Below, piece after piece: positions 10,561 to 50,610 of a stretch of 64,000 nt of DNA. The notes beneath the pieces are model-generated. The model did no database searches and had not been told where the DNA came from. It saw only the letters and a program-made list of their open reading frames with translations. Numbering within the stretch: the first letter of the stretch is position 1; every line of letters starts with the position of its first letter. The translations under genes and the position numbers were made by a program. The stretch is from Belliella alkalica (GTDB lineage: Bacteria; Bacteroidota; Bacteroidia; Cytophagales; Cyclobacteriaceae): NCBI RefSeq assembly GCF_022549785.1, contig NZ_JAKZGO010000010.1, forward strand, positions 1-64,000. The letters run 5' to 3'.

Positions 10561-10944
10561 GGAGATGGATGAAGGAGAAATGATTAAAGATGAAAGGGAA
10601 ATGATCTAGATTACATAGTTAGGAAGGGTGAAAGTCGAGAAGAGAAGCGTTTGAGAATCAAGAGAAAGGAAGCGAGATACAAGAGGGGTTTGAAACTCAA
10701 GATAGCCCTGAAAGGGCTTATGATCCAAGCATCGGATTATGACCCGATGTCTAAAAAGATTTCAGTTGAACATTTGCCCTTGCAGGACAATTGAATAGAT
10801 GAAGAGGATAAAGAAAAATCAAAAAAACATTATTAACTATTTTAATGATGTGGCTTCTGATTGCTTTGCAAGAAACGAAAATATTTAGCTGATTTTTTCG
10901 GAGAATGAAAGAAAAAACCTATCTTGAATGAAAACAAAATAGCC
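10561..10944. repeat. Non-coding gap: purine-rich tract plus one bipartite REP element
   Basis: No gene is visible. 10561-10700 is strikingly purine-rich on the plus strand, with many GAGA, AAGAG and GGAAG runs. A bipartite palindrome follows: AGCCCTGAAAGGGCT (10704-10718), 11 bases, then CATCGG / CCGATG arms at 10730-10735 and 10744-10749. The first half matches the GCCCTGAAAGGGC cores of the arrays around the RAYT gene at 19.9 kb. The remainder is A/T-rich and presumably holds the promoter of the next gene. Confidence 0.65.
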
Positions 10945-19165: not shown

Positions 19166-19180
19166 TCATAATCAGATAAT

Positions 19181-19790
19181 TCCTGCACCCTTTCAGGGTT
19201 TCTTGGGTAGATTCTAGCTTGGTTATCGATGGGTTTTACCCATCGTTAATGTCACTAACCCTTTCAGGGTTTTTGAGATTAAGATTCTCTTATTTTGTAA
19301 TGAATTTTAACCGTTGGATCCCTACACCCTTATAGGGTTTTTTGGGGAGGTTCTGGCTTGGGTGTCGATGGGTTTTACCCATCGTTAGCTTCATTAACCC
19401 TTTCAGGGTTTTTGAGATTAAGATTCTCTTTTCTGTGAATTTTAACCGTTGGGTTCCTACACCCTTATAGGGTTTTTTGGGGAGGTTCTGGCTTGGGTGT
19501 CGATGGGTTTTACCCATCGTTGGCGTCACTAACCCATTCAGGGTTATTAGATTTTATCCAAAAGCAATCAGATTTTTAGCTTTTAAAATTCTTGATGTAT
19601 CGTAAAATGCAAAATGCCCTGAAAGGGCATTTGATACTAACAATGGGTAATGCCCATTGAATAAATAGGCTAGAGCTCCATCTTGCCCTGAAAGGGCAAT
19701 TGATATTAGCAATGGGTAAAACCCATTGAATAAATGTATCGTCACGCTACCTCCCCAGCCCTGAAAGGGCTATTGAAAGATGTTAATTTC
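19181..19790. repeat. Left REP array flanking the RAYT gene
   Basis: Tandem units carry three palindromes each: ACCCTTTCAGGGT, then CGATGGGTTTTACCCATCG, then ACCCTTTCAGGGT. The conserved spacer containing AACCGTTGG begins at 19309 and 19444, a 135-base period. After about 2.5 units comes a unique tail (19544-19614). Oppositely oriented elements GCCCTGAAAGGGC plus CAATGGGTAAAACCCATTG follow, near 19620-19655 and 19685-19730, with a last GCCCTGAAAGGGC near 19760. The palindromes resemble those recognised by REP-associated tyrosine transposases, and that gene lies next door. Confidence 0.9.
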
Positions 19791-19913
19791 AATTTTGGAA
19801 TTTAAAAACATTTAAATTAAATTGATAGAGCATTAAAACAGATAATATCAAACTAATTTGGCACATCGAAAATTAAGCTTCTCAGTATTTTTAATTAAAT
19901 TTTTAATCTAAAA

Positions 19914-19926
19914 CCCTTTTTCAGGG
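19914..19926 (+). promoter_or_regulatory. Degenerate REP hairpin directly upstream of the RAYT start
   Basis: CCCTTTTTCAGGG sits nine bases before the ATG at 19936 and is a relaxed version of the CCCTTTCAGGG array core. It would lie in the 5' leader or overlap the translation start region, where binding by the transposase could regulate its own expression. That role is inference. Confidence 0.5.
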
Positions 19927-19935
19927 ATTTGTTTT

Positions 19936-20388
19936 ATGGGACAATCGTTAGTAAAAAATTATATCCATATTGTATTTAGCACTAAGCATAGAATGCCGCT
20001 TATTAAACCAGATATTGAAAGCCGCATTCATAGCTATTTAGGAGGGATTTGTAATCATTATGAATCACCTTCAATTATAGTAGGTGGGTATGTTGATCAT
20101 GTTCATATATTGTGTATGCTCTCTAAAAAGATTGCTTTAATGGAGTTTGTAAAAGAATTGAAATCTAAATCTTCAAAATGGGTGAAAACAATAGGTCAAG
20201 ACATTGATTCATTTTATTGGCAAGATGGGTATGGTGCATTTTCTGTAAATCCAAGCGAGATTGATATAGTGGTAAAATACATTCAAAATCAACATCAACA
20301 CCATTCCAAAAAATCTTTTCAGGAAGAGTATAGATCTTTCCTAAAGAAATATAAAGTGGAGTATGATGAAAGGTATGTCTGGGACTGA
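19936..20388 (+). CDS. REP-associated tyrosine transposase (RAYT, IS200/IS605-like)
   Basis: A 150-residue single-domain HUH endonuclease. The HUH motif is His55-Val-His57 in DHVHIL, and the catalytic tyrosine is probably Tyr115 in KYIQNQ. Other family hallmarks are the N-terminal NYIHIVFSTKHR and WQDGYGAFSV (residues ~95-104). RAYTs are domesticated relatives of TnpA that nick and process REP hairpins as single-stranded DNA. The gene is intact and lies between two REP arrays, in the convergent space between the cystathionine beta-synthase gene and batA. There is no accessory TnpB gene and no sign of a complete insertion sequence. Confidence 0.93.
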   Translation: MGQSLVKNYIHIVFSTKHRMPLIKPDIESRIHSYLGGICNHYESPSIIVGGYVDHVHILCMLSKKIALMEFVKELKSKSSKWVKTIGQDIDSFYWQDGYGAFSVNPSEIDIVVKYIQNQHQHHSKKSFQEEYRSFLKKYKVEYDERYVWD

Positions 20389-20400
20389 ATTTCTTTTTGG

Positions 20401-21275
20401 TCGTAATCCTACACCCTTACAGGGTTTTTTTGGAGATGTTCTGGCTTGGGTATCGATGGGCTTTACCCATCGTTAGCGTCACAAACCCTTTCAGGGTATT
20501 TTGGGTTTAAGATTTTCTTTTCTTTGAATTTTAACCGTTGGATTCCCACACCCTTTCAGGGTTTTTTGGGTAGGTTCTGGCTTGGGTGTCGATGGGTTTT
20601 ACCCATCGTTAGAGTCATTAACCCTTTCAGGGTTTTTGAGAATAAGATTTTCTTTTCTTTGAATTTTAACCGTTGGATTCCTACACCCTTTCAGGGTTTT
20701 TGGGGATGTTCGCGCTTGGTTATCGATGGGCTTTACCCATCGTTAGCGTCACAAACCCTTTCAGGGTATTTTGGGTTTAAGATTTTCTTTTCTTTGAATT
20801 TTAACCGTTGGATTCCTACACCCTTTCAGGGTTTTTTGGGTAGGTTCTGGCTTGGGTGTCGATGGGTTTTACCCATCGTTAGCTTCATTAACCCTTTCAG
20901 GGTTTTTGAGAATAAGATTTTCTTATTTTGTAATGAATTTTAACCGTTGGATTCCTACACCCTTTCAGGGTTTTTTGGGGATGTTCTGGCTTGGTTATCG
21001 ATGGGTTTTACCCATCGTTAATGTCACTAACCCTTTTAGGGTTATTAGATTTTAGCCAAAAGTAAACAGATGCCTAGCTTTTAAAACTCTTGAAGTACGT
21101 AAAATGCAAAGTGACCCGAAGGGGTAATTGAAACAATAAAAATGCAGGTCAATTGAACAGAAGCTTACAGTAACAACCCATGCCCTGAAAGGGCACTTGA
21201 TACTAACAATGGGTAAAACCCATCGACCAAATAGGCTAGAGCTCCACCTTGCCTTGAAAGTGCACTTGAATGGTA
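20401..21275. repeat. Right REP array flanking the RAYT gene
   Basis: About five units of the same composite repeat as the left array, in the same orientation. The AACCGTTGG spacer begins at 20533, 20668, 20803 and 20942, so three intervals are 135, 135 and 139 bases; the last is longer because of a TATTTTGTAATG variant. Each unit holds ACCCTTTCAGGGT and CGATGGGTTTTACCCATCG type palindromes. The array ends in a tail (21042-21110) closely matching the left one, then an inverted element GCCCTGAAAGGGC plus AATGGGTAAAACCCAT at 21182-21222. It stops about 20 bases before the batA stop. Confidence 0.9.
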
Positions 21276-21292
21276 AATGAATAAGAAATAAC

Positions 21293-46460: not shown

Positions 46461-46845
46461 ATGTGAGACAAGAGATTTGGGACATGAGACAAAAGACACG
46501 AGACCCAAGAAGCGATAGGAAAGAAGCAAGAAGCAAGTGACATCTAAAAACCCCGAAGGGGTTAAACCTCGATTAGCCCCGCATTACAATGCGGGGTTTG
46601 AAAAGAATCATGGGAGTAGCGCAACCAACCCCGAAGGGGTTAACCTTTGAATAAACGCGGGTAGCAACCCGGGGAATAATGATGATACAGGAGATAACAA
46701 CCCCGAAGTGGGTTGAACTCCTCTAGTTGTAAAAAAAACAACTATTTTCACGAAATTAGACAAACCATTAAATGCCTTTTTCTTACCAAAAGCTTTCGGT
46801 ATAGTCGTTACATTTCTTCAATTGAAACAAAAAGTATCTTGGCCT
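46461..46845. repeat. Non-coding gap with a second REP family
   Basis: The gap opens with a purine-rich tract (46461-46545, repeated GAGAC, AAGAAGC). Palindromes follow: AACCCCGAAGGGGTT (46549-46563), CCCCGCATTACAATGCGGGG (46577-46596), AACCCCGAAGGGGTT again (46627-46641), CGGGTAGCAACCCG (46658-46671) and a degenerate AACCCCGAAGTGGGTT (46699-46714). Each pair has the same bipartite layout as the REP elements at 10.7 kb and 19-21 kb, but a different core. No transposase gene is nearby. Nothing is recognised after 46720. Confidence 0.8.
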
Positions 46846-50527: not shown

Positions 50528-50610
50528 GCGCACGTGGTGAAATTGGTAGACACGCCATCTTGAGGGGGTGGTGCCCTTCGGGTGTGGAAGTTCGAATCTT
50601 CTCGTGCGCA
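50528..50610 (+). tRNA. tRNA-Leu (anticodon GAG)
   Basis: The 83-base cloverleaf has acceptor arms GCGCACG and CGTGCGC with discriminator A, and a D arm with TGGTGAAATTGGTAGACA. The anticodon loop is TTGAGGG (GAG, reading CUC/CUU leucine codons). A long class II variable arm (TGCCCTTCGGGTG) and the T arm GAAG-TTCGAAT-CTTC complete it. The 3' CCA is not encoded. Confidence 0.96.

Follow-up and report, generated by a model that had tools for sequence, protein, structure and literature searches.

A TnpAY1 subclass 1.2 gene between arrays of a three-hairpin repeat in Belliella alkalica, probably a REPtron-like unit on the IS200 branch

We describe a locus of Belliella alkalica at which a Y1 transposase gene lies between two dense arrays of a composite hairpin repeat. 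The window, by which we mean the whole stretch of DNA analysed, comprises 64,000 nucleotides (positions 1 to 64,000 of contig NZ_JAKZGO010000010.1, assembly GCF_022549785.1). An earlier note, made from the letters alone, had placed a gene for a complete REP-associated tyrosine transposase (RAYT; REP, repetitive extragenic palindrome) between two such arrays. The arrangement is confirmed, in that a covariance model recognizes 11 elements at 19174-21276 on the two sides of the gene (Table 1). The left array (about 19174-19783) has unit orientations - - - + + and the right array (20400-21276) - - - - - +; the period is about 135 bp, with units 135 or in places 139 bp apart, and the units contain ACCCTTTCAGGGT and CGATGGGTTTTACCCATCG. 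These two sequences and the spacing are as the earlier note had described them, but each unit has three hairpins rather than two, and both orientations occur within each array. Read in one orientation, each unit opens with the B' hairpin, whose stem has 5-6 bp and whose loop has 3 nt. After a short spacer (about 10-16 nt) comes the central hairpin, with about 8 bp, and a longer spacer (about 23-32 nt) separates this from the A' hairpin. Within an element, the outer hairpins B' and A' are of equal polarity. There are two subtypes in the arrays: minus units have ACCC outer stems and plus units have GCCC outer stems.

A structural scan of the window for such triplets counted nine in the arrays, of which one is out of register, and a single further one at 46.5 kb; none occurred in any of five order-1 Markov resamplings of the window. 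Two covariance models were used, R1, which recognizes the family of the arrays (F1), and R2. The stems of F1 have 31 double-changed cells against a shuffled mean of 11.3, with eight one-sided cells, and those of F2, a sister family in the same genome (see below), have 16 against 4.5 in shuffles, with two one-sided cells. G-T pairs are few in both families. The paired stem changes, of which few are one-sided, and the scarcity of G-T pairs suggest DNA rather than RNA hairpins. In the window and 10 loci, Rfam at gathering scores yielded nothing but a tRNA at 50528, and GCCCTGAAAGGGC was not found in the open-access literature searched.

The 150-aa protein encoded between the arrays matches Y1_Tnp in a Pfam search (E 6.9e-25) and IS200 in an NCBIfam search (E 1.9e-17). 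It has an HUH motif (H55, H57), WQ at 95-96, Tyr115, Q119, H122-H123 and a C-terminal helical extension, its motifs reading DHVH, WQ and YIQNQHQHH. In an alignment with 26 relatives, chosen from the genome-scan matches, His55, His57 and Tyr115 are invariant, as are HxH, WQ and Y---Q--HH, with Q119 in all 27 sequences. We also compiled a set of named relatives, the best 80 of at least 585 from a contig scan, on which the flank counts for named relatives below are based. The full HUH-WQ-Y---Q--HH pattern occurs in 72 of the 78 that are in frame, and Y---NP in none of these 78, a count that leaves out L205 and L240 (matched stretch not a multiple of three) and includes L183 and L194 despite stops. 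An AlphaFold2 model of the protein, built with 40 of the 80 named relatives (predicted local distance difference test, pLDDT, 89.4), has helices at 119-125 and 128-138 after the Tyr helix at 106-117. Its fold matches at ranks 1-29 in the PDB are TnpA of IS608, ISDra2, IS200 and similar elements, and the RAYT structure 4er8 appears only at rank 30; the best PDB matches by sequence are likewise IS608 and ISDra2 TnpA.

In the available portions of Quentin et al. 2018 (PMC6006769), subclass 1.2 of TnpAY1 is characterized by Y---Q--HH, about 148 aa and low copy number, with occurrence in Cyanobacteria and Bacteroidetes; REP is listed as 'no' for this subclass, and class 2 (the RAYTs) has Y---NP. 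The protein studied here agrees in phylum, in its DH[IV]H, WQ and Y---Q--HH motifs, and in its length and short helical C-terminal extension, a comparison made with the published description. It agrees also in copy number, since the genome has four such genes, low in number and divergent. Judged by motif and modelled fold, the protein is thus a TnpAY1 of subclass 1.2, in the IS200 branch. Because Y---NP is absent, the subclass 1.2 motif is present and the fold is of the IS200 type, it is not a RAYT by membership: the earlier note was right that the gene is intact and in its catalytic residues, but the family name does not hold. The published 'no REP' does not fit this locus; it is, however, a descriptive entry rather than a defining motif.

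The records of the named relatives bear the labels Bacteroidota, Planctomycetota, Verrucomicrobia, Acidobacteria, Ignavibacteria, Chlorobi and others; many are metagenome-assembled genomes, whose labels were taken unchecked. Of the 300-bp flanks, 133 of 153 proximal ones contain outer-type hairpins, as opposed to 18 of 144 distal and 11 of 153 shuffled ones; distal and shuffled flanks are the only density controls, and some central hairpins (3-nt loop) and some overlapping hits are also counted. Hairpins with a stem of at least 6 lie on both sides at 45 of 73 loci (5 of 64 distal), and an inverted-match score of at least 50 is reached at 28 of 73 (0 of 64 distal), seven of the 80 loci being excluded here because a flank was too short. 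On either side of the gene the purine-loop strand usually faces it (251 of 332 hairpins), so that the two sides mirror each other; by locus, 57 point toward the gene, 8 away, and 15 are ties. Upstream of the gene, 36 of 79 flanks have a whole triplet, and downstream 30 of 77; 45 of these 66 have the expected orientation, and the distal windows give 0 of 71 and 2 of 73. A minimal form is seen at locus L056, where one element ends just 5' of the ATG and an inverted one begins past the stop, and locus L216 (Bacteroides xylanisolvens XB1A, NC_021017) has a similar arrangement. Upstream of the L216 gene, at about 1700-1990, there are also tandem units of about 63 bp with one outer hairpin each, followed by a full triplet that adjoins the gene.

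The hairpins carry a short tag. At positions +1, +4, +5 and +6 past the hairpin, G (58 %), A (59 %), T (56 %) and A (50 %) are preferred among the 332 hairpins, and AT stands at +4,+5 in 121 of them but at the mirrored place before the hairpin in 31. The 5' side has little preference except for A at -1 (53 %). No preference for GTAG or GTGG was found at the 5' foot of these hairpins; the preferred bases, roughly G..ATA, lie 3' of the purine-loop strand.

Across genomes, the repeats often accompany the gene. A subclass 1.2 gene was found at E 1e-10 in 30 of 59 genomes, including that of B. alkalica. Among genomes from outside the genus, 13 of the 25 that have the gene contain R2 matches, as do 0 of the 26 that lack it (Fisher p 1.1e-5); for R1 the figures are 11 of 25 and 2 of 26 (p 0.003). 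These p-values are rough, because the genomes are related and not independent. Among the seven out-of-genus genomes whose best gene is at least 60 % identical, six have R1 matches.

The B. alkalica genome (4.95 Mb; here G000, with its congeners as G001-G007) holds further copies. The earlier note had proposed a genome-wide search for the bipartite hairpin pattern. In its exact form this pattern has seven matches, all seven at the array locus (control 0), and it is a poor census tool because the central stem varies. The short hairpin CCCTKWMAGGG has 41 genome sites, versus 13 for the reversed control. R1 has at least 40 matches, of which 36 are listed, 11 at the array locus and 25 elsewhere; R2 has at least 36. 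All such genome counts are lower bounds, with at most 65-68 candidates scored per genome (for R1 in this genome, 68 of 1907 first-look candidates), and some matches of both models, including some of the 25 dispersed R1 matches, are cross-hits to sister families. One dispersed member is the element at 10.7 kb, which the earlier note had correctly recognized. The arrays had also been proposed as the source of a genome-wide family. Copies elsewhere do exist, but the arrays are no more than a candidate source: most of the aligned dispersed copies have the GCCC outer stem of the three plus units in the arrays and not the ACCC stem of the minus units, they mostly differ from array units in the central stem, and many adjoin a 25-bp repeat described below.

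Table 1. The gene and the tripartite hairpin elements of the window
Feature	Position	Strand	Basis or remark
F1 tripartite element, left unit 1	19174..19277	-	R1 match
Tripartite element, left unit 2	19313..19416	-	covariance model
Tripartite element, left unit 3	19448..19551	-	covariance model
Tripartite element, left side, A' hairpin gene-facing	19609..19710	+	covariance model and alignment
Tripartite element closest to gene on left	19678..19783	+	hairpin in common with the 19609..19710 element
TnpAY1 subclass 1.2 gene (assigned)	19936..20388	+	150 aa; domain, motif, alignment and structure evidence
Tripartite element, inverted relative to nearest left element	20400..20504	-	starts 12 bp past stop codon
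Tripartite element, right array	20537..20640	-	covariance model
Tripartite element, right array	20672..20774	-	covariance model
Tripartite element, right array	20807..20910	-	covariance model
Tripartite element, right array	20946..21049	-	covariance model
Tripartite element at end of right array	21175..21276	+	covariance model
Dispersed F1 member	10698..10801	+	R1, E 1.1e-17; altered form at aligned place in G002
F3 triplet, intergenic	46549..46641	+	triplet scan; slot has F1 in G002

The other three subclass 1.2 genes of this genome are 35-39 % identical to the window gene, of which it has no near-identical copy; several near-identical mobile copies, as in IS200/IS605 (subclass 1.1), are thus not present. 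All four genes sit among repeats of their own. The paralogues on contig C10 (family F2) and at C1:81402 (F3) each lie within their own tripartite hairpin family, and the gene at C1:450936 (F4; L054) is flanked by long repeated blocks whose palindromes are of the CTCCAGCTAAAGCAGGAG type and differ from the tripartite elements. In G002, one paralogue forms a near-identical tandem pair (C22). Elsewhere in that genome, at C32:407700-415900 (L157:9700-17900), F2 hairpins stand between four tandem paralogues of a gene resembling a lipoprotein gene, with a 2.0-kb unit, and the repeats may favour gene amplification there. Among the dispersed copies of B. alkalica, those at C17:23294, C29:242102, C3:2850 and C2:120780 (L036, L041, L301, L286) have extra CCTCCCGATAAGGATGCGGGACAGG-type palindromes inside an outer hairpin, as if these were nested insertions. 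Purine-rich low-complexity tracts (GAGATACAAGAAGCGAGA-like) are often found beside dispersed hairpin elements, e.g., L031, L035 and L292.

In an alignment of 12 dispersed F1 copies, picked in G000, G001 and G002, conservation extended well past the hairpins and ended near TCAGGACG.GACA. The corresponding 25-bp motif, TGTC..GTCCTGAAAATA.TTGACA, has 40 matches in the genome with at most 3 mismatches (control 0). In the 30 of these 40 contexts that we inspected, it adjoins modules of quite different kinds, namely F1, F3 and one more that lacks hairpins of this sort. CTTTTT follows the motif, and then come the differing modules, e.g., at C2:347831, C51:6667 and C3:42897 (L282-L311). The motif looks like one end of a family of units resembling miniature inverted-repeat transposable elements (MITEs). 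It was not found in the gene-linked arrays or at L056. No autonomous element with such an end was recognized in the 30 contexts of about 240 bp each, which is no proof of absence.

Repeat elements turn over between species. The intergenic slot at 46.5 kb of the window (46496-46731) holds F3 in G000 and F1 in G002 (C2:74301-74527, L152). Another slot, beside a gene that we take by eye to be sbcC, has F1 in G002 and none in G000. The slot at C40:274040 has F1 in G000 and lacks it in G001, G002, G003, G004 and G007, where the whole slot was read; in G006, the part read, on one side, has other hairpins, and G005, with about 1 kb between its two matches, was left out of the comparison. The number of array units also differs between G000 and G002. 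In the block shared by C95 and G002:C2 we found slot changes and changes in array length with no clean excision, and the C10/C32 and C40 sites are alike in this. As for the surroundings of the window gene, the long neighbouring open reading frames (ORFs) presumably encode, judged by eye, a cysteine synthase and a VWA-type protein.

The locus can be compared with several known systems. Its protein resembles that of IS608 and ISDra2 (IS200/IS605, subclass 1.1) in fold and catalytic residues, and the end hairpins of those elements are of one polarity; here, however, there is no high-copy insertion sequence (IS), and the gene is outside rather than inside the hairpin pair. Palindrome-associated transposable elements (PATEs) are short, palindromic, non-autonomous derivatives of IS200/IS605, possibly moved in trans by TnpA, and we liken them to the present repeats by description alone. 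The REPtron formed by RAYT/TnpA_REP, as far as it is treated in the accessible parts of PMC8266576 and PMC3733652, shares one Y1 gene, hairpins on both sides, copies elsewhere and a short foot tag; it differs in its protein branch, and here the unit has three hairpins, the tag is roughly TAT..C and not GTAG, and there are tandem arrays. RAYT group 5 (subclass 2.6) of Bacteroidetes is described in the available portions of PMC6006769 as having 'atypical secondary structures' at the gene and genome copies, in the same phylum, but it has the class 2 motif YIH[QN]NP and a longer protein (median 179 aa). Subclass 1.2 itself, as published in those portions, differs from what we found in that hairpins border the gene here, and in that relatives also occur in records labelled (unchecked) Planctomycetota, Verrucomicrobia, Acidobacteria and others. 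In titles, abstracts and passages of the open-access literature, supplements aside, we found no repeats described for subclass 1.2. In the accessible text of PMC12306157 (RepRanger) the word transposase does not occur, and in that of PMC11194056 RayT is used as a gene name.

With inverted repeats on both sides of the gene and copies elsewhere, the locus is, as far as its sequence can tell, organized like a RAYT/REP pair and yet fails RAYT membership. We therefore consider that it probably represents a REPtron-like unit whose enzyme is a nuclease of the IS200 branch (TnpAY1 subclass 1.2), with hairpin copies inverted around the gene. How such a unit might work can be proposed by analogy with IS200/IS605, in which the two ends are hairpins of the same polarity, and with REPtrons. 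The protein would most likely bind the outer hairpins in single-stranded form and read the tag at the hairpin foot, roughly G..ATA 3' of the purine-loop strand, i.e., TAT..C 5' on the other strand. A nick at the tag through Tyr115 could then be followed by strand transfer. Since the two outer hairpins share one polarity, as do IS200/IS605 ends, a single element could be excised or copied in single-stranded form and then joined beside another copy. Tandem arrays might arise from repeated transfer of this kind, or from slippage and recombination. The REPtron knowledge behind the inferred binding, tag guidance, nick and strand transfer is that of the consulted parts of PMC8266576. A broader hypothesis, to which we give somewhat less than even odds, is that subclass 1.2 constitutes a second, independent REPtron lineage across several phyla, many members having their own three-hairpin family with a TAT..C foot; REP systems would then have arisen at least twice from Y1 transposases.

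It is important to emphasize the observations that weigh against a REPtron-like unit. Whole triplets occur only in the fractions of flanks given above, and 11 upstream and 10 downstream have an unexpected orientation. In 7 of the 28 listed loci of the family and order, a 3-nt-loop hairpin is missing within 260 bp (L004, L068, L071, L072, L075, L079 and L081; L076 has one, and L071 has longer-loop hairpins farther from the gene). Of the 78 in-frame relatives, six do not have the full protein pattern, in one case owing to stops. The strict tag G..AT is present on 98 of 338 proximal and 6 of 23 distal hairpins, and because it is equally common on the latter, it marks a type of hairpin and is not evidence for a link with the gene. 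Arrays without a gene, which the earlier note had named as a finding that would count against it, were encountered in part. Array blocks of F2 at C95:99-105.7 kb have no subclass 1.2 gene, and a tblastn search of C95:95-112 kb with the four proteins gave no match below E 2.9. These blocks (G000:C95:99187-105645; L050, L145, L146) have a unit of about 255 bp and are broken up by ORFs at 100909-101835 and 103453-104640. In addition, model matches without a gene at E 1e-10 occur in the congeners G005, G006 and G007, as is to be expected if they are relics or spread by another route. Some copies are not young: G003 has the F1 element of G000:C11:101253 in a collinear stretch, and G002 has an altered form of the one at 10.7 kb. 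No clean empty site was found at the compared sites, where flanks are too divergent or also repetitive. Finally, 10 of the 15 dispersed F1 copies that were checked, out of the 25 listed, have the 25-bp motif within 150 bp (at most 5 mismatches).

This last observation raises an alternative that we regard as rather unlikely but worth serious weighing, namely that another mobile element spread the dispersed copies, as passengers in MITE-like units beginning with TGTCRYGTCCTGAAAATAGTTGACACTTTTT, and that any action of the subclass 1.2 protein is confined to the vicinity of its own gene. The conservation of the 12 aligned copies out to the 25-bp motif, the 40 matches of this motif beside differing modules and its absence from the gene-linked array are all as such a history would predict, and dispersed F1 copies may indeed have travelled in this way. 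However, it does not account for the hairpins beside the gene in relatives that carry labels of several phyla; the motif is missing from the minimal locus L056 and from 5 of the 15 dispersed copies, and no autonomous element with the 25-bp end was recognized in the contexts inspected. The motif thus weakens the proposal of a source locus for a genome-wide family, and not the link between gene and hairpins. It is very unlikely, in our view, that the hairpins are RNA-level or chromosomal elements, such as terminators or mRNA stabilizers, unrelated to the protein, and that the genes merely drifted into repeat-rich spots. Their intergenic location and the gene-less F2 blocks at C95 would fit this idea, but hairpins are close to and inverted around the gene in the named relatives, across genera the repeats tend to be present where the gene is, the scarcity of G-T pairs speaks for DNA, and no Rfam family besides tRNA reached its gathering score in the window and the 10 loci.

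Even less probable is a standard insertion sequence of the IS200/IS605 type that has a hairpin at its left and at its right end. Although the protein belongs to the same branch, hairpins lie on both sides and the tandem pair in G002 shows that near-identical copies of one paralogue can exist, the four genes of B. alkalica are divergent, and the hairpins are inverted around the gene, not of one polarity. A canonical class 2 RAYT with ordinary GTAG-type REPs would have the same overall layout, in which one Y1 gene is framed by inverted hairpins and further copies lie elsewhere, but we find it scarcely credible: the motif excludes membership, Y---NP being absent from every in-frame relative, the closest PDB structures are IS608 and ISDra2 TnpA, and the foot has no GTAG preference.

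Hairpins at many subclass 1.2 genes contrast with the survey that, in its available portions, lists no REPs for this subclass (PMC6006769). The mirrored hairpins and their tags provide direct in vitro substrates for a protein group whose role is unknown, and three-hairpin families may account for some of the intergenic repeats that lack annotation in Bacteroidota and in other phyla. REP/RAYT is a well-known case in which bacteria seem to have retained a transposase for the sake of its small DNA repeats. Should another branch have composite repeats of its own, the question of the cellular role of such enzymes can be asked twice, independently.

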